A DNA stretch of 64,000 nucleotides from Rhododendron vialii (lineage: Eukaryota > Streptophyta > Magnoliopsida > Ericales > Ericaceae). Below, piece by piece: positions 9,361 through 42,640 of this stretch; position 1 is the stretch's first letter, and each line of letters starts with the position of its first letter. The translations under genes were made by a program, and so were the position numbers. The notes beneath the pieces are model-generated. The model made no database searches. It worked only from the letters and a program-made list of their open reading frames with translations, and was not told the DNA's origin. The DNA is taken from assembly GCF_030253575.1 (NCBI RefSeq), contig NC_080558.1:23938611-24002610 (forward strand). The letters run 5' to 3'.

Positions 9361-9842
9361 TATATATATAATATAGATATACACATATAAAATTTAGATT
9401 TTTAGAACATACTCAACAAGATCTATCCAACAAGACCCATATTTAATTTGAATTTATTTGCAAAAAATCGCAATTTTTGGGGGTGTAAATTGTTTGATAT
9501 CGAGAATTGTGGACCGTCTATTGGACCGTCTATTGTGTGTGAGTTTTGTATAATAATGAGTGTAAATTTTTTGTTATTGGGGGTGTGAGTTGTTGTGTAT
9601 TTTTAGGTGTGAATTGTCTGTTGTAATTAAGGGTGTGAATTATCTGTTATAGGGGTGTGAATTGTTGTATAAGGGTGTAAATTACGTGTCATGTCCTAAA
9701 TTTTAAACATAATAATAATTTTCTCATAAAGAAAATATCAACATTATACCGTTCCCCAAATGACATGCCATATCATACATTGAACCCCCATGTTTCAAAT
9801 ATTACAACCAAATGGGTCACAACCCACATTTCATAAGTAATA
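9361..9842. repeat. AT-rich flank with GGGTGTGAATTGT repeats
   Basis: At about 9478-9700 variants of GGTGTGAATTGT recur every 20-35 bases. The motif is related to the larger GTGTGAATTC fields at 11270-12190 and 13500-14080. No gene is seen. Confidence 0.6.
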
Positions 9843-10114
9843 CTCCCTTCGTCCATTTTTAAATGTCCTATTTCGTAACTCCAACTTATTAAAAAAACAT
9901 CATCATTATACCTTTCACATCAACTTTTTCCTCCACTTTCCCTACTTACCCATCATCATTACACTTTTTACTCAATAACTTTTCAAAATGGAATCTACTT
10001 TTAGGGACAAAATAGACAATATACTAACTTTTACCCACTAACTTTACCAAATGGACACTTATTAAGGGACAGCCCAAAATGAAATACTGGACTATAATAA
10101 GGGGACGGAGGGAG
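9843..10114. mobile_element. Stowaway-type MITE (Tc1/mariner), 272 bp, copy 1
   Basis: The termini read CTCCCTTCGTCC and GGACGGAGGGAG, the canonical Stowaway inverted repeat, and TA duplications flank them at 9841-9842 and 10115-10116. It has exactly the same length as the copy at 26629-26900 and is nearly identical to its reverse complement. Non-coding. Confidence 0.92.
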
Positions 10115-10715
10115 TATATAGAAGATAAAAAAAGTTAAGTGTTTTACATTCATCCCAATTATTGATAGATAAAGTAAAAGGTTATATTTCCATCAACAAA
10201 ATAGGATATACATACACGGTAAAATAACTCATAGATGTTAGCTCTTCAATAGAATGTTAGTATACGCACGTCAAACATTTCATGCTACTGACTTTGGTTT
10301 GTACCCAAAAAAGAAAGGGTTGAGCATACATTTGCCTAGTACGAAATTCTCTACTAACTGTAAATGTATATGAGATAACAGGTATGAAGGATAAACGTAT
10401 TGTGAGTAATGAGGAACTCAGATACAACATGTCAAGTGTGACCCACATTCTGGAAATTTGGGACTTTGTACGTCTCTTGCCTAGTGACACACATGAAGGT
10501 GGTCCTAGTCTGTGTCCCTTGGGATTCTTCCAGGCTGGCCCAAATTTGTCACTGTCTACCTGTCTAAACCCACTGTGTGTCAAGTCCATTCCACATAAGC
10601 CCTGTTTTAAATAAACTGTCAAAAGTACCCCCACCCTCACCCTTACAGACCATACTCACACACACACACACTCTCTTTTCCCAGTTTCCACAGTTCTCTT
10701 CCGATCTACAGAACA

Positions 10716-14080: not shown

Positions 14081-14092
14081 GAATTCTGTGGA

Positions 14093-14908
14093 CGCGGGGG
14101 CTCTGCTGCCACCATGGGCAGCAGCCCCAACCCACACCTCACACACGGCACCGTTTTGACCGTTTTGACAAAGGAAAAAAAAAAACAAACTCTTCCGTTT
14201 ACAATCCTATAGAGCAGAAACGTGATTATGAGAGCCCTAGAGTTAAAATTTAATTATGTCTCTGTAGAATAATATGATCAGAATAATAAGATCTTCGCGT
14301 CAATTCAAACGGATTGAAAATTGAAGCACTTAATTTTTTAATCATATTTTTTTAATATATAAACGGTCTAAAAAAAATTAAAAGTGTGACAATTTTTAAT
14401 TCGTTAAAAATAAGTACGAAAATCTTATTATTCTAATTATATTATTCTAAAGAGATATAATTAACTTTTGTCTATAAGACTCTCATAATCACGTTTCTGA
14501 TCTACAGAATCCTAAATAAAGAGCAGATACTTAATTATGAGAGCCGTAGAGACAAAAATTAATTATGATACTTTAGAATAATAAGATATTCGTAATTCTT
14601 CAAACGAATTTTTTGGCGTACTTAATTTTTTTATAGACATAGACAATTTATATATTAAAAAATATGATTAAAAAAATTTAAGTGCTCCAATTTTCAATCT
14701 GTTTGAATAGACGCGCAGATCTTATTATTCTGATCATATTGTTCTAAAGAGACATAATTAAATTTTAACTCTAGGGCTTTCATAATCACGTTTCTGCTCC
14801 ATAGGATTGCAAGCGGAAGAGTTTATTTTTTTTTTTTGGTCAAAACGGTGCCGTGTGTGAGGTGTGGGTTGGGGCTGCTGCCCATGGTGGGCAGCAGAGC
14901 CCCCGCAT
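14093..14908. repeat. Large nested palindrome, MITE-like, about 816 bp
   Basis: The outer arms are near-perfect reverse complements. They start with GCGGGGGCTCTGCTGCC, pass through a CACACGGCACCGTTTTGACC segment and continue through an AT-rich part to about 14345 on the left and 14650 on the right. The centre (14345-14650) holds further inverted copies of the AATAATAAGAT and CATAATCACGTTTCTG motifs. The T/A run lies symmetrically at 14180 and 14825. It is a fold-back element or the head-to-head fusion of two copies. No coding capacity. Confidence 0.75.
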
Positions 14909-15159
14909 CCGAATTCTGTGAGGTGTGAATTATTGGGGTGTGAATTTTGTAGGCTGTTGAAAAATCAAAAGGGTAAAATAGTAAAAACATATTTAAAATG
15001 CGACTGAATGGGATAGCTCTACAAAAAGGAATTTGCATGAAACTCTAAGCAAAAAATGAGACCGGGCAGGAATTTCCCGGTGTCCTTTTCATGCATTAGG
15101 TATCCACATTTCTCATTTCATCATTAAACATATCATTCAAGTCAAGTAGTTAACACTCT

Positions 15160-16992: not shown

Positions 16993-17868
16993 GGGAAAAT
17001 TTCAAAATATCCCCCCAACCTTTACACCAAAATTCAATTAGACTCCCAACCTTTTAAAAACTTCAATTTTACTCCCAACGTTATCTTTCCTTAATCAAAA
17101 AGCCCCCTTCCGTCCGAATGACTAACGGATTTCGTTAAAAGCTCCATTAAATAGCGTCCCGATCGAATTTCGATGATTCGAGCCGCTCAATGTGTTCAAA
17201 ACGTGATTTTAAAGGCAAGAAATCAACAAAAAAAATGACCAGGAAGGGCTTCATCTGAATAGTTTTTTATTGAATAATTTAATAAAAAACTGCTCAAATC
17301 AAGCATTTCCCGGTCAATTTTTTTTTGCTAATTTCTCGCGAGGACCTTTAAAATCACGTTCTAATCACATTGAGCGGCTCGAATCATCGAAATTCGATCG
17401 GAAAATGAGAGGTGCAGACCGAAGCTAAATTCGGACGTCTAGACTTTAACAAAATCTGGATCGATCTGCACCTCCCATTTTTCAATTGAATTTCGATGAT
17501 CCGAGCCGCCCAATATGATTCAAACATGATTTTAAGGGTACCCGCGAGAAATCAACAAAAAAAAATGATCGAAAAGGGCTTCAATAAAAAACTGTTCAGA
17601 TGAAGTCTTTTCCGGTCTTTTTTTTTTTGCTGATTTCTCATGGATATCTTTAAAATCATGTTTTGAACACATTGAGCGGCTCAGATCATCGAAATTTGAT
17701 CGGAATGCTATTTAATGGAGCTTTTAACGAAATCCGTTATTCATTTGGATTGAATGGGGCATTTTGATTAACGGAAGATAACGTTAGGAGTAAAATTGAA
17801 GTTTTTAAAAGATTGAGAGTCTAATTGAATTTTGGTGTAAAGGTTTGGAGATATTTTAAAAATTTTCC
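16993..17868. mobile_element. Fold-back Mutator-type MITE, 876 bp
   Basis: Long inverted arms of about 200 bp run inward from GGGAAAATTTCAAAATAT and its counterpart ending AAAATTTTCC. The flanking 9-mers ACTGAAAGA (16984-16992) and ACTGAAATA (17869-17877) differ by one base, which fits a 9-bp Mutator target duplication. Inside are two more pairs of inverted segments carrying the GAGCGGCTCG core also seen at 153-425. No transposase is present. Confidence 0.75.
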
Positions 17869-26600: not shown

Positions 26601-26628
26601 GTTTTCGAATATTAAAATCTAAATGGTA
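23610..26628. other. AT-rich intergenic region with unassigned exon-like pieces
   Basis: 24468-24800 is C-rich, with open frames on both strands made of Pro/His/Thr or Gly/Val runs, which is low complexity and not a recognisable protein. A short frame at 25556-25725 begins MKRIHPTVSARKRNVEQ and is followed by Arg/Gly-rich sequence. It might be the tail of a decayed coding exon, but its family is unknown. The remainder is AT-rich with no supportable feature. Confidence 0.3.
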
Positions 26629-26900
26629 CTCCCTCCGTCCCCTTATTATAGTCCAGTATTCCATTTTGGGCTGTCCCTTAATAAGTGTCCATTTGGTAAA
26701 GTTAGTGGGTAAAAGTTGGTACATTGTCTATTTTGTCCCTAAAAGTAGATTCCTTTTTGAAAAGTTAGTGAGTAAAAAGTGTAATGATGATGAGTAAGTA
26801 GGGAAAGTGGAGGAAAAAGTTGATGTGAAAGGTATAATGATGATGTTTTTTTAATAAGTTGGAGTTACGAAGTAGAACATTTAAAAGGGGACGGAGGGAG
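26629..26900. mobile_element. Stowaway-type MITE (Tc1/mariner), 272 bp, copy 2
   Basis: The termini are CTCCCTCCGTCCC and GGGGACGGAGGGAG, with TA on both sides (26627-26628 and 26901-26902). It is the near-identical reverse-orientation partner of the copy at 9843-10114. Non-coding. Confidence 0.93.
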
Positions 26901-26936
26901 TATTAAACCTCTAGGCATTTAATACAAATTTTGAAT

Positions 26937-28907: not shown

Positions 28908-29028
28908 AGTTTGCAGACACAAAGTAGGTACAAACACAAAGTTGGTTAGGATCAAAGAGAGTCACATGATATATTACTAGAAAACACTGACTTGCATTCA
29001 CTTAGGTTTTACAATGGTGAGAGCCCTC

Positions 29029-29036
29029 CTTTTATA
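29029..29036 (-). promoter_or_regulatory. TATA box in the distal promoter repeat, minus copy
   Basis: TATAAAAG on the minus strand within a GCCTATAAAAGGAGGG context, identical to that of the plus copy. It points out of the element toward lower coordinates. Confidence 0.65.
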
Positions 29037-29445
29037 GGCAAAAGGAGGGGTTGATTACATTATGCTTACATAAGCCTAGCCTACTATATGCCAAAGCCTA
29101 TACATGCCACACTTATTACACCATACTGTTACACATATGACCTTTTACACCACGTCTGCTAACTATTACGTACAACTCATAATTGAAGTTTTCTGTGCAC
29201 ATGTCTTCATCAGTACTTTACACTTAGACTTTACTACCTTATGCATTTATGATTCTCCTAATTCACCCCTTCCGGAAAGGAGTGATATGACTAGCATTAT
29301 ATTACATTACACACCAATTATCAGTACAAATAGTACACACCAATAATTTACATCTTTAAACAGTACACACCAATAATATTACCCTCTCCTGGAAATGGAA
29401 AGGGGGCACCACACAAAAGAGACAATTGGCCTGAACACAGTGATG

Positions 29446-30162
29446 TTATTCGGGATTATCTGAACCACTGCTTCTAGAATAGTCTTCAGTTCTGTCCGTC
29501 AAGTAATACTGTTCCAAAAGATAGCGGATATTTTGGCGCCATTCTTCCGGATAAGTATCATTGAATTTCCAATTTGCAGATTCATAATGGAGGAGAGATG
29601 AGGGAACTTCTGTAGGTGTCAATCCATTGAGTGAACACAGTGTTTGAGTCATGACCAGATAATTTCCACTGTCGCTTTGGATGTTCTGAGACTCTGGATA
29701 TGCAGAGAGAAATATAGTGTGATACTCTTTCTGCCAAGTGATAGAACCATCTTGATTGGGATGACTCAATGTTGTTGCGATTTGTCCAAAAAGCAAATTG
29801 AAGATCTCCGCCTGCACTGTTGGGGATTTGTCTGATCTTCTGTTGCCAGTAAGATATGCTTCCAAAGAGTAGGAGAAATTTCAAAAGAAATCCTCTGGAG
29901 GATGGACCTGATTGAACGCTGCATGTGCCAGATACATCAATACTGTTGATTTATTAAAACAGACACTTATAGTATACACATCAACTAAATACCATAAGAG
30001 GAGATAGACTTCTTTTTTGAAATAAAAGACATTGTGGTAAGACACTTCAAACTGGGTGAGAAAATGATAGACAGGATGGAAAGGTAGACCTTTTATGGAA
30101 CCTTCATCAAGACCATATTTGAAAATACAGAGATGTTGAAGGTTTTGACACATTTTGGACAC
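29446..30162 (-). pseudogene. Terminal viral ORF, minus copy, frameshifted
   Basis: Two adjoining frames (30162-29881 and 29865-29446) together match the 264-aa ORF of the plus copy at 40752-41546. A frameshift around 29870-29885 separates them. The conserved parts include YHNVFYFKKE and FGSISYWQQK. The function of this protein class is unknown. Confidence 0.75.
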
Positions 30163-30379
30163 ACCTGCAAAGAAGGGTTAACTCTAGAATTTGACACTGA
30201 AGGTGGACAGAAAATTTGACTGGGTGGAAACAGTAAATCATTGAAAAACAACCAGGGATAAAGGAATGTGATTTTGTTTTTGAAAATTGGTTGATTTCTT
30301 TTTTAAGCCTTGACAGAAAATCAGGAAGGACATTTGTTTTTCCTTTTACGTGAACAGCCTCAAAACTCCAATTGGAAAA

Positions 30380-30838
30380 TCAATTTGCCCATCTGAGTAA
30401 CTGTGCCTTTAGAAGGTGCTTCTGTTTGAACTTGAGCATGTTGGAAAAACTCATCATATCAGTCTCAATTAGGAAATGATGACCGATTAGATGAAATTCA
30501 AACTTTTCAATGCTTCTTTTGATTGCCAGAATTTCTTTGTAAGTAGAGTGGTAATGAAGTTCTGCTGGAGAGAAAGTACCACTTTTGTATCCACAAATTC
30601 TGCGCTTTTTAACTGAATTTTCTTCCAAAAGAACTGCTCCCCAATATAGATCAGAGGCATCTGTTTGAAAGACTCTCTTTCCATCTGAAGGTATGGTTAA
30701 TGGGGGAAGAGTTTTGACTATATCTTTGAGGTCTTTTATAGCTTTGGTACAAAGGGCTGACCAAGGAGGAGTGGTTTTCTTTAGTAGAGCTGAGAGAGGA
30801 GTTTGGTATTGGGCAAGGTTGGGAATGAAATCAGCCAT
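30380..30838 (-). pseudogene. Viral RNase H region, minus copy
   Basis: The frame starts in the RT thumb/connection region and includes the RNase H signature TDASDLYWGAVL with its catalytic Asp. It is separated from the RT core (31318-31046) by a damaged segment (31045-30839) with stops and a frameshift. Confidence 0.8.
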
Positions 30839-31045
30839 ATAGTTAACAATTCCAAGGAACTGTTGAACTTGTTTGACTGTGAGATTTTCATCTGGAAAAT
30901 GGTCAAGTTGGGAGGCTATATGAGGTTAAAGGGTATATTGACCTTTAGAGATATGCATCCCTAAAAAATCAATTTCTGGTTAGGCAATAAGCATCTTTTT
31001 CTCTAAAAGCATGATACCATGGGTTTTGACCAGGGAATGAAAAAT

Positions 31046-31318
31046 TTATAGTAAGACAACATGAGACTCAATATCTGGAGAAAAGAGTAGGATGTCATCA
31101 ATGTAGACAAGTGCTGAGGATAGAATAGGAGCAAATACCCAAATCATGGCCTTTTGAAACAAAGATGGAGCTGTTTTCAATCCAAAAGGCATGACTGACC
31201 ACTGGAAATAGTGATCTGGAATGCAAAAACCAGTTTTGGGACGATCATCTGGATGGATGCCCAGCTGCCAGAAACCTGTTTTTAGGTCAAACTTTGAGAA
31301 AATTTGAGTTTTAGGCAA
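31046..31318 (-). pseudogene. Viral reverse transcriptase core, minus copy
   Basis: Contains KFDLKTGFWQLGIHP, MPFGLKTAPSLFQ and the catalytic VYIDDILLF motif. The polymerase motifs are intact, but the frame is cut off on both sides by stops or frameshifts. Confidence 0.85.
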
Positions 31319-31786
31319 GTTTGCAAAAAGAACACTTCTCCGAGGAAGAGGGAATTTATTATCCTACAAAAAATGATTAAGAGGCTGGTAGTTGATAACC
31401 AGGCGAAGCTTTCCTCTTATCTGCTCTGTCCTCTTATTTACATAAAATGCTTCACATACCCACTGAGAGGTTGTGGGCTTGATCAAACCTTCTGACTGGA
31501 GTTGCTGAAGCTATTGAAGAGCAAGCTGGTAATGTTCTGGGTTCATTCCATGATGGGTGGCTTTGGTGGGATTGATGTCTTCATTTTTCTTAAAAGGAAG
31601 AGAAATGAAGAAATCTGGGTTTTTCCAAAGTGGGTTAGAGCATTTGGTGAGGAACTGAGAATAGGATTTAGCACAGAAAGTTTGGATTATGGCTTCTTTG
31701 AAGGAAGAGAAATTTTCTATGGAAAATAGATTTGGCTGAATGGTCTAGGGTAATAGGTAGTTTTGTATTTCAAGCCTTTTTTTGAG

Positions 31787-32314
31787 CTAGGAGACTTTGC
31801 TGAGATTTTGGAGGATATCAAAGCCTAGCAATAAATCTTTTCCTAGGAGATCAAGACCATAGACTTGGTGTTTTATAGTGTATCCAGGAAAAAGTTGGAT
31901 GATAATAGGCTTATTGATTAGAGTGATGACAAAAGTTTCTCCATTGGTTACTGTAAAGGGTCTAAAACAAGATTGCCAATAGGACCTGGGGAGGATTGCT
32001 GGGTTGAGAATGGAGGCTGCTGCATCAGTATCAAAGAAAGCTATAACTGGTATATGCTTCTCATATTTTCCAAGTAAGATTTTGACCTTGGCTAAAGGTT
32101 GAGCCAGCATGATGTTGGAGAACCCAAATATTTGGACTTCATAGGGGAATGAGTCAGAATCATCAGAATAGTCATCTGATTCTGATGAATCATCTGAGTC
32201 AGAAAAGGTGAATGCTAGGACTGCTTCATCTGTTGCTTCATCATCAATGGAAAATAGTGATTCAACATCAGCATCTTCAAGATTATCATTAGAGAGAGCC
32301 AGAGAGCTCACCAT
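31787..32314 (-). pseudogene. Viral aspartic protease region, minus copy
   Basis: An acidic, Ser/Asp-rich linker leads to the retropepsin-like core. The active-site triad reads DTD where the plus copy has DTG, so the catalytic glycine is lost. A GKDLLLGFDIL stretch near the end matches the usual second half of the domain. Confidence 0.82.
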
Positions 32315-32338
32315 CTTGTCCCTTACTGTTTTATTTGG

Positions 32339-33018
32339 TCATTGTTTTGCATAGTGCCATTTCTTTCTGCATATATAGCAGCGATCAGACTTTCGCTGCC
32401 CTCTGAACTTTTTCTTCTTGAAAAATTTCCATTTCTTCCGGCGTGAGAACTTGCCAGATTTTGAAAACTTTGAAAACTTGCCAGGAGATTGAAACTTTAT
32501 TTCTGAAAGTGTTTGGACTTCCGGTATGAAGGACGGCAAGTGCATTTCTTATCTTTGCACTTTATGGATAAGTCTGCCCGATCACATGCTTTGCTAAAAA
32601 GTTTTCCCTGTTCTTTAAGAGTTTTGAGGAATTTCTGGTGATTGCACAATTTTTCCAAGGCAATCAAAGAGTGCTGGTAAATACCACCAAAAGATGTTGC
32701 ATTCAGCGTCAATCCTTTTGTCTGAAGTAACCTTGTTGTCTCATTTCCCAATGGTTCAGGAAGGGAATTGAAAAAGGCTTGCTTGAGGTTGACATCATCC
32801 ATGCCGTTGAGAAGATAAAATCTCTGAGACATACGGTCATAATGAATCTCGAGATCTTTCCTTTTGAATGAACAACACTTCATGCTGAGATATTCTTCTC
32901 GAACAAACTCTTTTATGTTGTTGTGGTCACCAAGAAACTCAGTATGCAGGATTGAGATGAATTGATCAAGGGTTGGCAATTGTTTAAGCTGCAACTGTCG
33001 GTATTCATCAAGAGCCAA
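32339..33018 (-). pseudogene. Viral coat protein with broken zinc knuckle, minus copy
   Basis: The frame at 33018-32497 matches the coat-protein core of the plus copy, and a frameshift leads to 32545-32339, which holds the Lys-rich stretch and the zinc knuckle. The knuckle keeps the first two Cys and the His, but its last Cys is replaced by a stop and the glycine before the His is Trp. Confidence 0.8.
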
Positions 33019-33074
33019 GTACTATTGACGAAGACGGCCAAGGAATTTTGCTGTACACTTAGTAAGAACAATAC

Positions 33075-33878
33075 TCAGTGTAGCGTTTGGGGAAAGCATA
33101 GCAGCAGTGTACCAAGCATGAATCTCATAAAGCTTATCCAGCCTTTTTGATGGGGGAATGTTATCAAAGGAGAAACCTTGGTATGAATGTTGGAATGTGA
33201 GAAGGAATCAAAGGTTGGGATTTCTGGAGGTGGAGGTGTATCAAACTCAGGACCTTCTTCAATAATAAGATCTTCAACATGTTCTTCAGGAAGATCTGGG
33301 TTCATCATAAAAACATGAGGAACTGGCATAGAGTCGATGGATTCAGTATCCGAATCAAACTCAATGGTTGGTTCAGGAGATGGGGTTTCTGGTATAGTGG
33401 CTAAGGTATGTAGGAGAGTGGAGATTGGATTTTTGGAATGGCTAGAAATTGACTAAACCATTAACCGAGGTGACTTTGAATTTGGATCAGCTGGTTTAGA
33501 AAGAGTGGAGGTAGTAGGAATTGAGGTAGAGGTAGTTGGTGGAGACGGAACTGTTGGAAATTGGATAGATTTTATCTGGGGCTTTGGGAAAGGAAGTTTT
33601 GATGGAGATGGTCTTTTTGGTGGAGGAAGGAAAGTTGATGAGCTTCCAAAAATGGAGCTTGACTCACCAAATTCTGAGGTAAGGTTTATAAGTAAAGGTT
33701 GAGACATTTGAGGATACTCAAATAAACTTTGTTGAGAGGAAGATGTGACCATGTCAAAAGGGCTTTTCTGCTGAGAATACGGCTCAGTTTGAAGTGAATA
33801 AAGCTGATTCTTTAGATGCTTCATTTCAACATCCTTTTGGTAAAAAGCTACTGAAAATACTTGATTTGCATATGCCAT
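33075..33878 (-). pseudogene. Viral coiled-coil and Pro-rich region, minus copy
   Basis: The frame at 33878-33453 carries a heptad-like segment (YQKDVEMKHLKNQ) and then a Ser/Pro-rich linker. The frame at 33329-33075 holds the acidic EEHVEDLIIEEGPEFD stretch preceding the coat protein. Stops separate them. Confidence 0.7.
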
Positions 33879-33998
33879 CTGGAGAAGTTATTGGAGAACA
33901 TTTTGAATTTTCTGCTACAAATCTCTGATAAGAAGTTCCAAAGATGATAACTTCTTATGGGCAACATTGTCCTAATTTTGCTGAGAGTTAGCAATTCT

Positions 33999-34184
33999 CT
34001 AAAGAATTTTGTTCTGAGCCAGAGAATTTGCTGACTGCCAATTTATTGCTGCTTTTGCTGCTGACACTGCTACTGCCAAGTACTCAAGATTAGGAGAAGA
34101 TGCAGAGGAACTTCTACTATTGGACGATCTTGAAGGAATTAAGGATGACGTAGCAGAGGAGTAGGTGGAATACAGATGACTCAT
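33999..34184 (-). pseudogene. Viral N-terminal ORF fused across the movement-protein deletion
   Basis: The first 36 residues match the start of the plus-copy ORF at 35523 and the rest matches the end of the ORF at 35785-36984. The middle, including the whole movement-protein domain, is absent. The join lies in the codons after SSASSPNLEYL. It corresponds to loss of about 35630-36910 in plus-copy coordinates. Confidence 0.8.
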
Positions 34185-34517
34185 TCTTTATAGATTAAAA
34201 TCTGGGTTTTTCATTTCCTCATACAACAAATCTTTTTTTTTTCAATGTAAAATCTTTTAACCAATTTTGATTAATAAAATTCTGTATACCAGGGTAAATA
34301 AACTGAGACACACCGCTCAAAAGCCAAAGTCTCAAGGTACTTTTAACACACTGATACAAAATTCTTTAGCCAAAATAGTTAATGAAGTTTCTGATGTGGA
34401 GGATCCTTTAAAAGGCAACCACAGAGCATATGGTTCAATTTTTCCTTTTAGAAAATATTTGAAGTAGTTTTGGAAAAGAAATTCCCAGAAGGGGTTTAAG
34501 CTAGAATGAACAACATT

Positions 34518-34530
34518 GGCTCTGATACCA
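34518..34530 (-). other. tRNA-Met primer-binding site, minus copy
   Basis: TGGTATCAGAGCC on the minus strand fits the tRNA-Met-complementary primer site of Caulimoviridae perfectly. It marks the conventional genome start of this copy. Confidence 0.85.
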
Positions 34531-34651
34531 AGTTTGCAGACATGAAATGGGTACAAACACAAAATAGGTTAGGATCAAAGAGAGACACAAGATATATTAC
34601 TAGAAAACACTGACTTGCATTCACTTAGGTTTTACAATGGTGAGAGCCCTC

Positions 34652-34659
34652 CTTTAATA
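34652..34659 (-). promoter_or_regulatory. Mutated TATA box, proximal promoter of minus copy
   Basis: Reads TATTAAAG where the other three promoter copies have TATAAAAG, within the same GGAGGG context, so it is probably weakened. Confidence 0.55.
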
Positions 34660-35044
34660 GGCATAAGGAGGGCTTGATTACATTATGCTTACATAACCTA
34701 GTCTACTATATGCCAAAGCCTATACATGCCACACTTATTACACCATACTGTTACACATATGACTTTTTACACCACGTCTGCTAACTACTACGTACAACCC
34801 ATAATTGAAATTTACTGTGCACATAGAATCATAAATGCATAAGGTAGTAAAGTCTAAGTGTAAAGTACTGATGAAGACATGTGCACAGTAAACTTCAATT
34901 ATGGGTTGTACGTAGTAGTTAGCAGACGTGATGTAAAAGGTCATATGTGTAACGGTATGGTGTAATAAGTGTGGCATGTATAGGCTTTGGCATATAGTAG
35001 GCTAGGCTTATGTAAGCATAATGTAATCAACCCCTCCTTATGCC

Positions 35045-35052
35045 TATAAAAG
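35045..35052 (+). promoter_or_regulatory. TATA box, proximal promoter of plus copy
   Basis: TATAAAAG inside GCCTATAAAAGGAGGG, about 130 bases upstream of the primer site. This fits a pregenomic RNA promoter. Confidence 0.7.
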
Positions 35053-35173
35053 GAGGGCTCTCACCATTGTAAAACCCAAGTGAATGCAAGTCAGTGTTTT
35101 CTAGTAATATATCCTGTGTCTCTCTTTGATCCTAACCTACTTTGTATTTGTACCCATTTCATGTCTGCAAACT

Positions 35174-35186
35174 TGGTATCAAAGCC
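35174..35186 (+). other. tRNA-Met primer-binding site, plus copy
   Basis: TGGTATCAAAGCC differs by one base from the tRNA-Met-complementary consensus found intact in the minus copy. Confidence 0.85.
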
Positions 35187-35522
35187 AATGTTGTTCATTC
35201 TAGCGTAAACCCTTCTTCTGGGAATTTATTTTCCAAAACTATTTCAAATCTTTTTCTAAAAGAAAAAATTGAAGCGTATGCTCTGTGGTTGCTTTTTAAA
35301 GGATCCTCCACATCAGAAACTTCATTAACTATTTTGGCTAAAGAATTTTGTATCAATGGGTTAAAAGTACCTTGAGACTTTGGCTTTTGAGCGGTGTGTC
35401 TCGGTTTATCTACCCTGATATACAGAATTTTATTAATCAAAATTGGTTAAAAGATTTTACATTGAAAAAGAAAAGATTTGCTGTATGAGGAAACGAAGAA
35501 CCCAGATTTTAATCCATAAAGA

Positions 35523-35783
35523 ATGAGTCGTCTGTATTCCACCTACTCTTCTGCTACGTCATCCTTAGTTCCTTCGAGATTGTCCAATAGTAGAAGTTCG
35601 TCTGCTTCATCTCCTAATCTTGAGTACTTATATGAGTTTGAATACCTTCTTGATGATAGTAAGGTTCCTCTTACTGATCTCCCTTTCCTCAACCCCTATA
35701 ATGCTTTTGTCAGACCGCAAACCTCTGTAAAAAAGACCGTCACCCAACTCTTCTCCACAAAACGTCCAACCTCCGTAAAATAG
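35523..35783 (+). pseudogene. Viral N-terminal ORF, plus copy (86 aa)
   Basis: A Ser-rich N-terminus (MSRLYSTYSSATSS) is shared with the minus copy. The frame ends one base before the movement-protein frame opens at 35785, so a frameshift may have separated the head of one long polyprotein from the rest. No domain is recognised. Confidence 0.6.
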
Positions 35784-35784
35784 T

Positions 35785-36984
35785 ATGTTCAAGCCTCTAA
35801 GTTTGGATCAGTGTTTCATAGCAGCTACAGAAGCTGAAAAACTTTTACCCCTGGAAATCCCGGTTGATTTGCCTCGCCTTTGGCAACAACAAGGATTTAC
35901 TCATCTTCACTTTGGAGCAATCAGATTGGCTGTTACTTTTCATGGCAGAAAAGGCTTACCTGTGCCTTCCAGACTTGCTCTGGTAGACACCAGGTTTCTA
36001 CAGTATCAACATGCATTTATTGCTACAGTTCAAACCACCTTAAATGCTGGAACTATGATCTTTACCTTTTACCCCAATTTCAATATGTCACTAGCAGATC
36101 CTCATTTGCTATCAGCTTTGAAGGTCCAAGTTCAAATTGGTGGTGTCTCCCAAATTTCCACCACATATGCAGCAACCCTTCACTACCAAATGGCATATCG
36201 CCTTCAAAACCATGCCTTTGACATGTCATTACCCTCCTCCACAGATGAAGCCCTTTTCCTAACTGTCAACGCACCTCACCAAGCTTCTTGTGTCCATGTT
36301 CCACGTCAGATTTCCCGACCTGAGCTTCTCAAGCTTCTCCCAGAGTCTTGGGTTACAGCTTATGAGAAAAACCAACAAAAGCCCATCCCAGTTCAATCCT
36401 TAAATCCAACTTTCATCCCAAAACCTGATGGTACAGTAGAGATTTCATTCCCAAAAGAAGTCTCTGCCTCATTCTCCACCCATCTTGTTATTTTTCCCTT
36501 GAGAATTGACATGTTTGTAGATGGTTCTGGACCTGGCCCTCCAATAAAATACTTCCAACGTAGTGGCCTTCCAGTCTTCTATTTCAAAAATACACAAACA
36601 GGTCATTGTTATGCCTGTGACTGTGATGAGTGTTTAGAAGAAAGTCTTCTAGAGGACGAAGAAGACTTTGAAGAACCATGTCCCTTATGTCCTCCGTCAC
36701 CTTCCACTCCTTGTAAATCTTTACCTCCTCCTCAACCTCCATCTGATGATGACTCTTCGAGTCAACCAAGTGGGTGTTTTATGTTCACCTCATCTCCTTC
36801 CTGGACTGAAGCAGATTTTCCTCCTCTGGAATTTCATAGTTCTCAAGAAAGAACAACCCACCGTCATAAATTTTCAGACCTTACTACCAATCTCCCTGAT
36901 GGTAGCACCAAAGCTGTGTCAGCAGCAGAAGCAGTAATAAATTGGCAATCAGCAAATTCTCTGGCTCAGAACAAAATTCTTTAG
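35785..36984 (+). pseudogene. Viral movement protein (30K superfamily) ORF, plus copy
   Basis: An open frame of 399 codons. Residues about 30-200 match the 30K movement-protein fold of Caulimoviridae, with the LHFGAIRLAVTFHGRKGLP region, a conserved LVDTRF and a TFYPNFNMSL segment. Members bind nucleic acid and enlarge plasmodesmata for cell-to-cell spread. A Cys cluster (CYACDCDEC and CPLC) with an acidic linker lies near residues 274-302. The frame ends at a stop just after AQNKIL, although the same frame continues with viral sequence at 37042. The region is missing from the minus copy. Confidence 0.85.
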
Positions 36985-37041
36985 AGAATTGCTAACTCTC
37001 AGCAAAATTGGGACAATGTTGTCCATAAAAAGTTATCATCT

Positions 37042-37308
37042 TTGGAACTTCTTATCAGAGATTTGCAGCAGAAAATTCAAAATGTTCACCAAGAACTTCT
37101 CCGGATGGCATATGCAAACCAAGCATTTTCAGCAGCTTTTTACCAAAAGGATGCTGAAATGAAGCATCTAAAGAATCAGTTTCATTCATTTCAAGCTCAG
37201 CAGTATTCTCAGCAGAAAAGCCCTTTTGACATGTTCACATCTTCCTCTCATCAAAGTTTGTTTGTGTATCCTCAAATGTCTCAACCTTTACCTATAAACC
37301 CTACCTAA
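37042..37308 (+). pseudogene. Viral coiled-coil region, plus copy (88 aa)
   Basis: A heptad-like segment (ELLIRDLQQKIQNVHQELL) is followed by Gln/Ser-rich sequence, in frame with the movement protein upstream and coat protein downstream. Stops at 36982 and 37306 bound it. Coiled coils here may mediate virion-associated interactions, by analogy only. Confidence 0.65.
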
Positions 37309-37674
37309 GAATTTGGTGAGTCAAGCTCCATCTTTGGAAGCTCATCAACTTTCCTTCCTCCACCAAAAAGACCATCTCCACCAAGACTTCCTTTCCCAAA
37401 GCCCCAAATAAAACCTATCCAACCTCCAACAGTTCCGTCTCCACCAACTACCTCTACCACAATTCTTATTACCTTCACTCATTCTAAACCAGCTGATCCA
37501 AATTCAAAGTCACCCGAGTTAATGGTTCAGTCAACTTCTAACCCTTCTAAAAATTCAATCTCCACTCTCCTACATACCTTAGCTACTATACCAGAAACCC
37601 CCTCACCTGAACCAACTATTGAGTTTGATTCGGATTTTGAATCTACTCACTTTATTTAAATTCCTCATGTTTTC

Positions 37675-38508
37675 ATGATGAACCTAGATCTTCCTGAAGA
37701 ACATGTTGAAGATCCTATTATTGAAGATGAAGATCCTATTATTGAAGAAGGTCCTGATTTTGATACACCTCCACCTCCAGAAATCCCAACCTTTGATTCC
37801 ATTTCACATTCTAACATCCATACCCAAGGTTTCTCCTTTGATAGCATTCCCCCAACAAAATGGCTAGATAAGCTTTATGAGATTCATGCTTGGTGCACTG
37901 CTGCTATGCTTTCCCCAAACGCTACACTGAGTATTGTTATTACTAAGTGTACAACAAAATTCTTTGGCCGTCTTCGTCAATGGTACTTGGCTCTTGGTGA
38001 ATACCGACAGTTGCAACTTAAACAATTGCCAACCCTTGATCAATTCATCTCAGTCTTGCATACTGAGTTTCTTGGTGACCACAACAACACAAAAGAGTTT
38101 GTTCGAGAAGAATATCTCAGCATGAAGTGCTATTCATTCAAAAGGAAAGATCTCGAGATTCATTATGACCGTATGTCTCAGAGATTTTATCTTTTCAACG
38201 GCATGGATGATGTCAATCTCAAGCAAGCCTTTCTCAATTCCCTTCCTGAACCATTGGAAAATGAGACAACAAGGTTACTTCAGACAAAAGGATTGACGCT
38301 GAATACAACATCTCTTGGTGGTATTTACCAGCACTCTTTGATTGCCTTGGAAAAATTGTGCAATCATCAGAAATTTCTCAAAACTCTTGAAGAACAAGAA
38401 AAACTTCTTGGCAAAGCATGTTATCGACCAGTTTTATCCATAAAGTGCAAAGACAATAAGTGCACTTGCTGTCCTGCATACCGAAAGTTCAAACACTTTC
38501 AGAAATGA
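37675..38508 (+). pseudogene. Viral coat protein core, plus copy (277 aa)
   Basis: An acidic N-terminus with two DPIIE repeats precedes the capsid core, which has a WLDKLYEIHAWCTAAML segment, a LDQFISVLHTEFLGD segment and IHYDRMSQRFYLFNGMDD. The order fits the Caulimoviridae coat protein, which ends in a basic region and zinc knuckle. Here a stop at 38506-38508 separates core and knuckle, in the same frame. The minus copy and the fragments at 42095-42380 derive from this region. Confidence 0.82.
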
Positions 38509-38616
38509 AAGTTCCAATCTCCTGGCAAGTTTTCAAAATTTGGCAAGTTCTCACGCCAGAAAAAATGGAAATTTTTCAAGAAGAAAAAGTTTAGAGGGCA
38601 GCGAAAGTCTGATCGT

Positions 38617-38658
38617 TGCTATATATGCAGAAAGAACGGGCACTATGCAAAACAGTGT
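38617..38658 (+). pseudogene. Viral CCHC zinc knuckle, plus copy
   Basis: CYICRKNGHYAKQC is a perfect C-x2-C-x4-H-x4-C knuckle after a Lys-rich stretch. It lies in the coat-protein frame beyond a premature stop. Confidence 0.85.
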
Positions 38659-38682
38659 CCAAATAAAACTGCAAGGGACAAA

Positions 38683-39102
38683 ATGGTGAGCTCTCTGGCT
38701 CTCATTAATGATAATCTTGAAGATGACGATGTTGAATCATTATTTTCCATTGATGATGAAGCAACAGATGAAACAGTCCTAGCATTCACCTTTTCTGATT
38801 CAGATGATTCATCAGAATCAGATGACTCTTCTGATGATTTTGACTCATTCCCTTATGAAGTCCAAACGTTTGGGTTTTCCAACATCATGCTGGCTCAACC
38901 TTTAGCCAAGGTCAAAATCTTACTTGGAAAATATGAGAAGCCTATACCACTTATAGCTTTCTTTGATACTGGTGCAGCAACCTCCATTCTCAACCCAGCA
39001 ATCCTCCCAAGGTCCAACTGGCAGTCATGTTTCAAACCCTTTATAGCAGCCAATGGAGAAACTTTTGTCATCATTCTAATCAGTAAGCCTATTATCATCT
39101 AA
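38683..39102 (+). pseudogene. Viral aspartic protease, plus copy, truncated
   Basis: After an acidic Ser/Asp linker, the core carries the active-site FFDTGAATSILNPA motif. A stop at 39100-39102 falls before the second half of the domain, whose GKDLLLGFDIF stretch still follows at about 39150-39190. It is in frame with the coat protein upstream. Confidence 0.85.
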
Positions 39103-39623
39103 CTTTTTCTTGGATACACCATAAAACACCAAGTCTATGGTTCTGATCTCCCAGGAAAAGATTTATTGTTAGGCTTTGATATTTTCCAAAATCTCAGCAA
39201 AGTCTCCTGGCTCAAAAAAATGCTTGAAATACAAAAACAACCTATTACCCTAGACCACTCAGACAAATCTCTTTTCTATAGAAAATTTCTCCTCCATCAA
39301 AGAAGCCATAATCCAAACATCCTGTGCTGAATTCCATTCTCAGTTCCTCACCAAATGCTCCAACACACTTTGAAAAAATCCAGATTTCTTCATTTCTCTT
39401 CCCTTTAAGAAAATGAAGACATCAACCCCACCAAAGCTACCCATCATGGAATGAAACCAGAACACTACCAGCTTGCTCTTCAAGAGCTCCAGCAACTCCA
39501 GTTAGAAGGTTTGATCGAGCCCACCACCTCTTAGTGGGCATGTGAAGCATTTTATGTAAATAAGAGGACAGAGGAGATAAGAGGAATCGCCTGGTTATCA
39601 ACTACCAGCCTCTTAATCATTTC

Positions 39624-40613
39624 TTGCAGGATAACAAATTTTCTTTTCCTCGGAGAAGTGTTCTTTTTGCAAACTTGCCTAAAGCTCAAATTTTCTCAAA
39701 GTTTGACTTAAAAGCAGGTTTCTGGCAGCTGGGCATCCATCTAGATGATCGACCCAAAACTGATTTTTGCATTCCAGATCACCACTTCCAGTGGTCAGTC
39801 ATGCCTTTTGAATTGAAAACAGCTCCATCTTTGTTTCAAAAGGCCATGATTCGGGTATTTGCTCCCATCCTATCCTCAGCACTTGTCTATATTGATGATA
39901 TCCTACTTTTTCCCCCAGATATGGAGTCTCATGTTATCTTACTACAAATTTTCTTTTCCCTGGTCGAAACCCATGGTATCATGCTCTCAGAGAAAAAAAT
40001 ATTTCTTGCTCAACCAGAAATTGATTTTTTAGGGATGCATATCTCTAACGGTCAATATGCCCTCCAACCTCATATAGCCTCCCAACTTGACCATTTTTCA
40101 GATGAAAATCTCACAGTCAAGCAAGTTCAACAGTTCCTAGGAATTGTTAATTATATGGCTAATTTCATTCCCAACCTTGCCCAATACCAAACTCCTCTCT
40201 CAGCTCTACTAAAGAAAACCCCTCTTCCTTGGTCAGCCCTTTGTACTAAAGCTGTAAAAGACCTCAAAGACATAGCCAAAACTCTTCCTCCATTAACCAT
40301 ACCTTCAGATGGGAAGAGAGTCCTTCAGACAGATGCCTCTGATTTATATTGGGGAGCAGTTCTTTTGGAAGAAAATTCAGATCAAAAGCGCAGAATTTGT
40401 GGATACAAGAGTGGTGCATTCTCTCTAGCAGAACTTCATTACCACTCTACTTACAAAGAAATTCTGGCAATCAAAAGAAGCATTGAAAAGTTTGAATTTC
40501 ATCTAATCGATCATAATTTCCTAATTGAGACTGATATGATGAGTTTTCCCAGCATGCTCAAGTTCAAACAGAAGCACCTTCCAAAGGCACAATTACTCAG
40601 ATGGGCAAATTGA
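39624..40613 (+). pseudogene. Viral reverse transcriptase and RNase H, plus copy (329 aa)
   Basis: An open frame of 329 codons holds KFDLKAGFWQLGIH, MPFELKTAPSLFQ, catalytic VYIDDILLF, a thumb region and the RNase H motif TDASDLYWGAVL. The first RT blocks lie upstream in damaged sequence (39420-39620), in a different frame and with a stop after IEPTTS. The frame differs from that of the protease. The end of RNase H (WSFDAVHVKGKTNVLPDFLS-like) follows a stop at 40611-40613. Confidence 0.88.
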
Positions 40614-40751
40614 TTTTCCAATTGGAGTTTTGATGCTGTTCACGTAAAAGGAAAAACAAATGTCCTTCCTGATTTTCTGTCAAGGCTCAAAAAAGAAATC
40701 AACCAATTTTCAAAAACAAAATCACATTCCTTTATCCCTTGTTGTTTTTCA

Positions 40752-41546
40752 ATGATTTCTTGTTTCCACCTAGTCAATTTTTCTGTCTACCTTCAGTGTC
40801 AAATTCTAGAGTTAACCCTTCTTTCCAGGTGTGTCCAAATGTGTCAAAACCTTCAACATCTCTGTATTTTCAAATATGGTCTTGATGAAGGTCCCATAAA
40901 AGGTCTACCTTTCCATCCTGTCTATCCTTTTCTCACCCAGTTTGAAGTGTCTTACCATAATGTCTTTTATTTCAAAAAAGAAGCCTATCTCCTCTTATGG
41001 TATTTAGTTGATGTGTATACTATAAGTGTCTGTTTTAATAAATCAGCAGTATTGGTGTATCTGGCACATGTGGTGTTCAATCAGGTCCATCCTCCAGAGG
41101 ATTTCTTTTTGAAATTTCTCTTACTCTTCGGAAGCATATCTTACTGGCAACAGAAGATCAGACAAATCCCCAACGGTGCAGGCGGAGATCTTCAATTTGC
41201 ATTTTGGACAAGTCGCAACAACAGGAGTCATCCTAATCCAGATGGTTCTATCACTTGGCAGAAAGAGTATCACACTATATTTCTCTTTGCATATCCAGAT
41301 TCTCAGAACATCCAAAGCGACAATGGAAATTATCTGGTCATGACTCAAACACTGTGTTCACTCAATGGATTGACACCTGCAGAAGTTCCCTCATTTCTCC
41401 TCTATTATGAATCTGCAAATTGGAAATTCAATGATACTTATCCGGAAGAGTGGCTCCAAAATATCCGCTATCTTTTGGAACAGTATTACTTGACGGACAG
41501 AACTGAAGACTATTCTGGAAGCAGTGGTTCAGATAATCCCGAATAA
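40752..41546 (+). CDS. Terminal viral ORF of unknown function, plus copy (264 aa), uninterrupted
   Basis: The longest unbroken frame in this copy outside the MP, CP and RT regions, located after RNase H and before the terminal promoter. The first 30 residues may be untranslated leader, and a likelier start is the internal Met in QMCQNLQHLC. It contains YHNVFYFKKEAYLLLWYLVD and FGSISYWQQKIRQ and ends in an acidic Ser-rich tail. Florendovirus-type elements carry a second ORF of unknown role at this position. The minus copy has a frameshifted version. Confidence 0.65.
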   Translation: MISCFHLVNFSVYLQCQILELTLLSRCVQMCQNLQHLCIFKYGLDEGPIKGLPFHPVYPFLTQFEVSYHNVFYFKKEAYLLLWYLVDVYTISVCFNKSAVLVYLAHVVFNQVHPPEDFFLKFLLLFGSISYWQQKIRQIPNGAGGDLQFAFWTSRNNRSHPNPDGSITWQKEYHTIFLFAYPDSQNIQSDNGNYLVMTQTLCSLNGLTPAEVPSFLLYYESANWKFNDTYPEEWLQNIRYLLEQYYLTDRTEDYSGSSGSDNPE

Positions 41547-41955
41547 CATCACTGTGTTCAGGCCAGTTGTCTCTTTTGTGTGGTGCCCCCTTTCCATTTC
41601 CAGGAGAGGGTAATATTATTGGTGTGTACTGTTTAAAGATGTAAATTATTGGTGTGTACTGTTTGTACTGATAATTGGTGTGTAATGTAATATAATGCTA
41701 GTCATATCATTCCTTTCCGGAAGGGGTGAATTAGGAGAATCATAAATGCATAAGGTAGTAAAGTCTAAGTGTAAAGTACTGATGAATACATGTGCACATT
41801 AAACTTCAATTATGGGTTGTATGTGGTAGTTAGCAAACGTGGTGTAAAAGGTCATATGTGTAACAGTATGGTGTAATAAGTGTGGCATGTATAGGCTTTG
41901 GCATATAGTAGGCTAGGCTTATGTAAGCATAATGTAATCAACCCCTCCTTATGCC

Positions 41956-41963
41956 TATAAAAG
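41956..41963 (+). promoter_or_regulatory. TATA box, distal promoter of plus copy
   Basis: TATAAAAG in GCCTATAAAAGGAGGG, identical to the proximal copy at 35045. It points out of the element toward the hairpin at 42095-42297. Confidence 0.68.
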
Positions 41964-42094
41964 GAGGGCCCTCACCATTGTAAAACCCAAGTGAATGCAA
42001 GTCAGTGTTTTCTAGTAATATATCATGTGTCTCTCTTTGATCCTAACCTACTTTGTGTTTGTACCCACTTCGTGTCTGCAAACTTGGTATCAGT

Positions 42095-42380
42095 AGATCT
42101 CAAGATTCATTATGACCGTATGTCTCAGAGATTTTATCTTCTCAACGGCATGGATGATGTCAACCTCAAGCAAGCCTTTCTCAATTCCCTTCCTGAACCA
42201 TTGGGAAATGAGACAGGTTTGCTTGAGGTTGACATCATCCATGCCGTTGAGAAAATAAAATCTCTGAGATATACGGTCATAATGAATGTCGAGATCTTTC
42301 GTTTTGAATGAACAGCACTTCATACTGAGATATTCTTCTCGAACAAACTCTTTTGTGTTGTTGTGGTCACCAAGAAACTC
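42095..42380. repeat. Inverted coat-protein fragments of the pararetrovirus
   Basis: After a truncated primer site, 42095-42215 is a sense piece of the coat-protein gene. 42216-42380 is an antisense piece of the same region. The arms 42095-42176 and 42216-42297 pair over 82 bases with few mismatches around a 39-base loop. The antisense piece continues further to 42380. It is a rearranged viral fragment. Confidence 0.9.
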
Positions 42381-42640
42381 ATTGCTAAACCCCAGGTTTG
42401 ATTTTAGAGTCCACTCCTATCATACTTTTATGTCCTGTGTCTCTAAATAAATCTCTTAAGATCACATTTTTGGAATAAAATCCAGTTAGAAAAGGATATC
42501 CAATTAGAGATAAACTGCCCATGAGCGTCATAGCATAGGCAAAAGAAACACCCCCCCCATATTGCTCATCCGACATGGCATGAATTACCAAACGTGCACC
42601 CTTGTCATGTAAGAGTGTTTCATGAATTACCGAACGTGCG
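42381..42640 (-). pseudogene. nad5: Mitochondrial nad5 fragment (NUMT)
   Basis: The minus strand (42591-42450) encodes [10 protein letters not shown], then [21 protein letters not shown], which match plant mitochondrial NADH dehydrogenase subunit 5. Several codons after DEQ are missing or replaced by a run of C on the plus strand (42551-42558). The reading frame beyond about residue 45 is unrelated. A short duplicate of the TGAATTACC(A/G)AACGTGC segment follows at 42620. It is a nuclear insertion of mitochondrial DNA, not functional. Confidence 0.75.

Follow-up and report, generated by a model that had tools for sequence, protein, structure and literature searches.

Natural inverted repeats of endogenous viruses have been proposed as seeds of heritable RNA immunity in plants, and how such inverted repeats arise is seldom visible. 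The closest described systems are the tomato TSAs (transcriptionally competent siRNA areas), rearranged endogenous pararetroviruses with inverted repeats that yield 22-nt siRNAs and silence in trans (Valli et al. 2023, Mol Biol Evol msac240, as related in excerpts of PMC10377300 and PMC12904150); 22-nt pararetroviral small RNAs are also described in tomato hybrids (excerpt of PMC9124383). In soybean, inverted repeats derived from a caulimovirid, a transposon and a cucumovirus give small RNAs (Jia et al. 2020; da Fonseca et al. 2016, both via excerpts of PMC10377300). A system of another kind is break repair in yeast, which can insert a pair of overlapping fragments from a single locus, one inverted relative to the other, with 2-11 bp of microhomology at the junction and a gap of ~2-20 bp; these foldback insertions arise within single-stranded DNA too (excerpts of PMC11724301).

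The locus described here lies in the window, by which we mean the whole 64-kb stretch of DNA that was analysed. It resembles the tomato TSAs in being a rearranged endogenous caulimovirid in inverted-repeat form, that is, an inverted repeat of endogenous pararetrovirus sequence, here adjoining viral promoter sequence. The TSAs are defined (in the excerpts cited) by their 22-nt siRNA density and by trans-silencing; the stem of the present locus is short (95 nt). With the yeast foldback insertions, as far as the excerpts of PMC11724301 describe them, it shares two overlapping inverted fragments, microhomology at the turn, a short gap, and outer ends with little microhomology; it differs in belonging to a plant germline and not to yeast, in a turn of 13 nt with two mismatches, and in the position of the insert at the end of a viral integrant. 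It agrees with the soybean examples, as excerpted, in being a natural virus-derived inverted repeat in a plant chromosome, and differs from them in host, element and expression evidence.

Young plant MIRNA genes are explained by an inverted-duplication model. The locus follows that model in having an inverted duplication behind a promoter, which would give a self-complementary transcript, and departs from it in its viral rather than host-gene source and in that no single mature product is known. Assignment to a known miRNA family was unsupported: at gathering thresholds, Rfam gave no match anywhere in the window.

We consider the hairpin to be most likely fold-back filler that was captured at integration (with a probability of roughly 0.72), situated at the rearranged edge of an inverted dimer of caulimovirid copies and an unselected by-product; it has the look of repair debris such as has already been described in other plants. 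As a source of siRNAs it would most likely be weak or conditional at best. The features concerned are these:

28908-34832, minus strand: minus copy of the virus (self-BLAST, repeats, Pfam RNase H matches on one ORF piece)
34825-42093, plus strand: plus copy, with ORF pieces for movement protein, zinc knuckle and RT/RNase H; frame broken
34825-35181, plus strand: inner copy of the 357-nt terminal redundancy (promoter and primer-binding site)
41736-42092, plus strand: outer (terminal) promoter region of the plus copy (self-BLAST)
41956-41963, plus strand: TATA box TATAAAAG (direct reading)
42085-42093, plus strand: truncated primer-binding site TGGTATCAG, at the end of the plus copy
42095-42215, plus strand: left arm, sense fragment of probable coat sequence; 97% identical to 38148-38268, 98% to the minus copy
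42177-42189, plus strand: native repeat, first half TTTCTCAATTCCC; 11 of 13 positions pair with 42203-42215 in the left arm
42203-42215, plus strand: native repeat, second half GGGAAATGAGACA; turn point and presumed fold-back primer
42203-42381, minus strand: right arm, antisense, from the same segment; 94% identical to 38064-38242 reversed
42254, plus strand: further AATAAA motif, within the right arm
42446 and 42474 (42446-42479), plus strand: AATAAA motifs 3' of the hairpin, possible poly(A) signals

The hairpin is located at the edge of a near-palindrome of ~13 kb (28908-42093), in which two endogenous caulimovirid copies with a viral unit of 6,911 nt stand head-to-head, and the plus copy stops within its primer-binding site. 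This dimer and its ends are directly observed: 28908-34071 is a 93% inverted match to 42084-36912, the centre (34078-35629) is self-complementary (self-BLAST), the minus copy has no counterpart of 35630-36911, and by direct reading the two copies begin ~49 nt apart in viral coordinates. Promoter sequence is present at both ends of each copy, 34825-35181 corresponding to 41736-42092 (96.6% identical, K2P 0.0345) and 28908-29202, in the minus copy, to 34531-34824. A longer primer-binding site, TGGTATCAGAGCC, occurs on the minus strand at 34522, with variants at ~35175 and 42085; the motif TGGTATCAGAGCC / TGGTATCAG at the genome end we take to be the tRNA-Met primer-binding site of an endogenous caulimovirid. 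Pfam searches of separate ORF pieces returned the movement protein (MP, 2.2e-16), the zinc knuckle (zf-CCHC, 9.4e-5) and the reverse transcriptase (RVT_1, 5.9e-25), giving movement protein, coat/zinc knuckle and RT-RNase H in the order of such elements; ten ORFs elsewhere in the 64-kb window gave no Pfam match. Among the 120 of 354 matches listed for the RT piece, the best near-full-length relative is 61% identical and partial matches reach 89-91% over 44-47% of the query; the listed relatives are mostly plant proteins, with names that give no genus (Florendovirus, Petuvirus or other). A peptide-pattern search of IMG/VR returned no match to the RT piece, and PDB no useful match for the coat-region piece.

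The preliminary description had named coat-protein sequence as the source of the inverted repeat, an attribution that is probable rather than proven. The source segment of the arms is placed between the movement-protein and zinc-knuckle matches, and the minus-copy piece matches Caulimovir_coat_dom below the cut-off (17.7 bits against 27, E 0.0047); the corresponding plus-copy piece has no coat-domain match in Pfam. From its position and this match, the segment is probably the coat gene.

A search of the genome (532.6 Mb in 13 chromosome-size contigs) for the palindrome centre scored all 14 candidates, and only this locus matched over the whole length. K2P distances are 0.035-0.060 among the four promoter copies and 0.061-0.088 over five body segments, and the bodies of the dimer are 92-94% alike. 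In the coat region the plus and minus copies share 93.9% identity. Other copies were compared where an alignment exceeded 600 nt, which left 37 (three of the 40 fetched windows had none and were dropped): one of the 37 comes nearer to the minus copy than its partner in the dimer does, and for the plus copy there is no such case. The margins are small (medians of the other copies 91.6% and 92.1% vs 93.9% within the dimer). The core promoter part, 41930-42084, with its nearest scored relative outside the locus at 93% over 115 nt and the rest at 79-86%, points the same way; the upstream part, 41736-41831, with relatives at 95-98% elsewhere, points the other way. We see moderate support for a dimer derived from one viral lineage, and the hairpin, to judge from the divergences, need not be younger than the dimer. 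A transcript entering 28908-42093 from outside would itself fold into a hairpin of kilobase length, beside which the 95-nt stem is small.

The arms of the hairpin were first given as 82 nt with a 39-nt loop; those 82 nt do pair, and the full structure is larger, with arms of 95 nt each (42095-42189 / 42203-42297), 93% complementary, around a loop of 13 nt. Both arms derive from one segment of the plus copy (self-BLAST, repeat search), and the right arm outruns the left by 84 nt on the outer side. The predicted RNA fold has -154.5 kcal/mol vs a shuffle mean of -52.7 (z -25.8; none of 200 shuffles as good) and a stem of 90 base pairs, two of them G-U. An 836-nt inverted repeat elsewhere in the window (14081-14916) has a still stronger fold (z -44, 20 shuffles), so that the strength of the hairpin alone is unremarkable in this DNA. 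Just beyond the hairpin, 42382-42458 (77 nt) matches two places on C8 at 88-90%, and this virus is absent from the 3-kb loci there; the piece may be additional filler or a repeat of the host.

The coat segment of the family contains a native imperfect inverted repeat of 13 nt with a 13-nt spacer; the left arm passes through its second half, GGGAAATGAGACA, and then turns into the complement of the first half, TTTCTCAATTCCC. At both unpaired positions of the native repeat the right arm carries the bases of GGGAAATGAGACA: the turn lies at a native repeat and the bases of the presumed primer are kept, as in a fold-back templated insertion. Among 54 coat copies (52 fetched and two in the window), the right-arm turn base is found in one at 38231 and in none at 38237. 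A whole-genome search for the turn pattern (<=3 mismatches) gave 23 matches, of which only the hairpin's turn was exact; the other 22, comprising the hairpin's own left arm and 21 places elsewhere, never carry both turn bases, and one of them (C12:20212902) carries one of the two. The arm ends are 26 nt apart in viral coordinates, and 26 nt out of a unit of 6,911 nt is a proximity that a random inverted join would give in ~0.8% of cases (our own arithmetic). As we read these bases, the turn is the signature of fold-back-primed synthesis, and since the hairpin bears such a repair signature, its origin needs no selection.

We infer from the junction sequences the following route. The plus copy ends in its primer-binding site, the usual end of terminal copies in this genome; a strand with the probable coat sequence would have folded back on the native repeat TTTCTCAATTCCC / GGGAAATGAGACA and been extended; and the snap-back piece would have been joined to the viral end as filler by end joining, with one unmatched T (42094) now standing at the junction after TGGTATCAG. 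The turn sequence favours a particular route, in which fold-back synthesis began at a native mini-hairpin while viral DNA was being captured; ordinary break repair would then lead directly to the origin of a potential silencing locus. No description of a fold-back turn in an endogenous caulimovirid was found in the titles and abstract openings of the papers listed by the literature searches.

The same hairpin could also have been made from two separate coat fragments of opposite orientation, joined by microhomology and without intramolecular fold-back; a join of this kind through the 13-nt microhomology, with fragments from different copies, would leave the same picture. Fold-back synthesis would make arms identical at birth. 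The divergence of the arms is what an origin from separate fragments would leave: they differ at 5/82 positions outside the turn, and random family pairs differ by 5.6% on average, 49% of them at least as much as the arms. Minority bases point mildly to separate sources, with the left-arm base at 38155 common to 4/54 copies, the right-arm base at 38227 to 5/54, and the two arms carrying different bases at both sites; over all sites with a minor base in at least 5% of copies, the arms disagree. Rare bases number five in 166 in the right arm and none in 121 in the left. The native repeat pairs at 11/13 in the left arm's version and at only 10/13 in the plus copy itself, and shuffled sequence is nearly as rich in short inverted repeats (five comparable native ones in the plus copy, at least 11/13 with a loop of at most 30, against 0-4 in ten base-shuffled controls). 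However, a join of separate fragments would not be expected to place the arm ends within 26 nt of each other, nor to use one of the few native inverted repeats, and, more weakly, the arms agree at all six sites with a minor base of at least 10%, as do 207/1431 random pairs. Weighing these, we regard separate fragments as unlikely though not negligible, and keep fold-back filler as the preferred origin.

The layout was compared with other copies in the genome. The 203-nt hairpin query returned 251 candidates, and among the 40 scored a full match was found at this locus only, the others being single coat segments; as the exact turn is also unique genome-wide, a family-wide hairpin variant is unsupported. 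Of the 52 coat segments fetched, 40 were taken with 3-kb windows, and none of these 40 other coat-region windows contained a viral inverted repeat with a short spacer (>=60 nt, 75%); one of them, L075, contains a non-viral 77-nt palindrome. The promoter query gave 564 candidates, 40 of them scored, and 1.3 kb from the promoter onward was taken at the 37 listed places outside the window (one partial row excluded), which are partly non-independent, some being the two ends of one element. Eleven of these continue into the viral 5' body (L128 reaching it after a second promoter piece); L124, L147 and L152 enter a shorter stretch of that body, and the other 23 places are terminal. In 22/23 the terminal promoter stops within viral 42077-42089, reaching the primer-binding site or falling just short of it; the promoter of L116 ends at 42058.

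Antisense viral sequence within 40 nt behind a promoter was found at three loci. Two are among the 23 terminal promoters and run into antisense viral body, L130 (C7:31427133) at once into 39684-38541, and L148 (C2:19643866) after 37 nt into 39043-37933. The third is L075, found through the coat search and not the promoter search, where positions 1176-1551 (C11:15481775-15482150) consist of promoter, 9 nt, and then antisense coat 38325-38110; it is a natural promoter-antisense layout in a related element. L147 and L152 are one locus (C2:25851593-25853139) with a viral inverted repeat beside the promoter (195-nt arms, 92%, 340-nt spacer), consisting of two tandem promoter copies and then an inverted one, and L116, L129 and L139 have inverted repeats downstream that do not match this virus. 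Among the 40/251 scored coat candidates, five other pairs of segments lie in opposite orientation within 3.5-5.5 kb, which indicates that inverted pairs recur. From these counts, the promoter-to-hairpin layout is one rare outcome of a recurrent type of rearrangement. They provide a first base rate: with hundreds of candidate copies in the genome, promoter-proximal viral hairpins were rare in the samples examined.

Another reading takes the hairpin for an active, maintained siRNA source, in which a transcript from the promoter would fold, be cut by Dicer-like 2/4, and give 21-22-nt siRNAs that silence related viruses or family members in trans. The layout on which this idea was built in the preliminary description is real: the TATA box at 41956-41963 is unmutated (TATAAAAG is read there), and the promoter is followed by virus-derived arms that fold. 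A transcript would start at ~41986, with the hairpin starting ~110 nt later, and could extend over ~500 nt as far as the AATAAA motifs; its 95-nt stem would be a possible substrate for Dicer-like enzymes, transcription and dicing both being inferred. Because the AATAAA at 42254 lies inside the right arm, some transcripts could stop short of a full stem. At least one exact 21-mer is shared with the left arm by 54/54 coat copies and with the right arm by 41/54, counts that are biased upward by the choice of these copies for their similarity to the hairpin. Given the tomato and soybean precedents (excerpts of PMC10377300), the silencing idea is reasonable and a silencing role is plausible.

Maintenance fits the evidence less well. 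The exact motif CTATAAAAGG is found in 3/4 promoters of this locus and in 34/37 sampled promoters elsewhere in the genome, a sample of best matches to the 41736-42092-type promoter that leans towards an intact TATA; with the intact TATA box as the family norm it is no evidence of maintenance, and the reading of it as a maintained promoter is rejected. The stem gives no sign that pairing has been retained, two of the five arm differences outside the turn becoming G-U and three being mismatches, such a hairpin is lacking in all 40 other coat-region windows, and endogenous caulimovirids are reportedly methylated in the few species examined (excerpts of PMC10377300). A common TATA box, the fold-back signature and family-typical arm divergence together weaken the functional reading; we see no sign in the sequence of selection on the hairpin, and consider an active, maintained source quite improbable. 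That the integration scar, by setting a dsRNA-forming copy of the probable coat gene behind the virus's promoter, became a host hairpin gene, silencing the coat regions of the family and related viruses in trans, would be a long shot; if true, it would amount to a heritable acquired RNA immunity, made in one step by integration itself. An assembly or sequencing artefact (a fold-back chimeric read or a misjoined palindrome) has hardly any probability left, for although fold-back artefacts are known from long reads (excerpt of PMC12870357), such a read predicts near-identical arms, whereas the arms here are only 93% alike and the dimer bodies 92-94%, which rejects a read artefact on the assembled sequence, and the right flank is low-copy sequence.

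The promoter itself shows an uneven pattern of relatedness. Its core, 41930-42084, is with its three sister copies 79-86% identical to most scored promoters elsewhere and 93% to one, the closest relative outside the locus being 93% identical over 115 nt among the 40/564 candidates scored. The upstream part, 41736-41831, has relatives elsewhere at 95-98%, and the left arm of the hairpin, unlike the divergent core, matches many coat segments at 97-99%. The core is possibly a recombinant or fast-changing region.

Further repeats occur in the window. The 836-nt inverted repeat at 14081-14916 has GAATTC at both ends and arms 80% alike, and is MITE-like; another inverted repeat, of 875 nt (16994-17868, 78%), has related pieces at 153-431. 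A pair of 279 nt in opposite orientation (9838-10116 / 26627-26905) is 96% identical, its members lying 16.5 kb apart.
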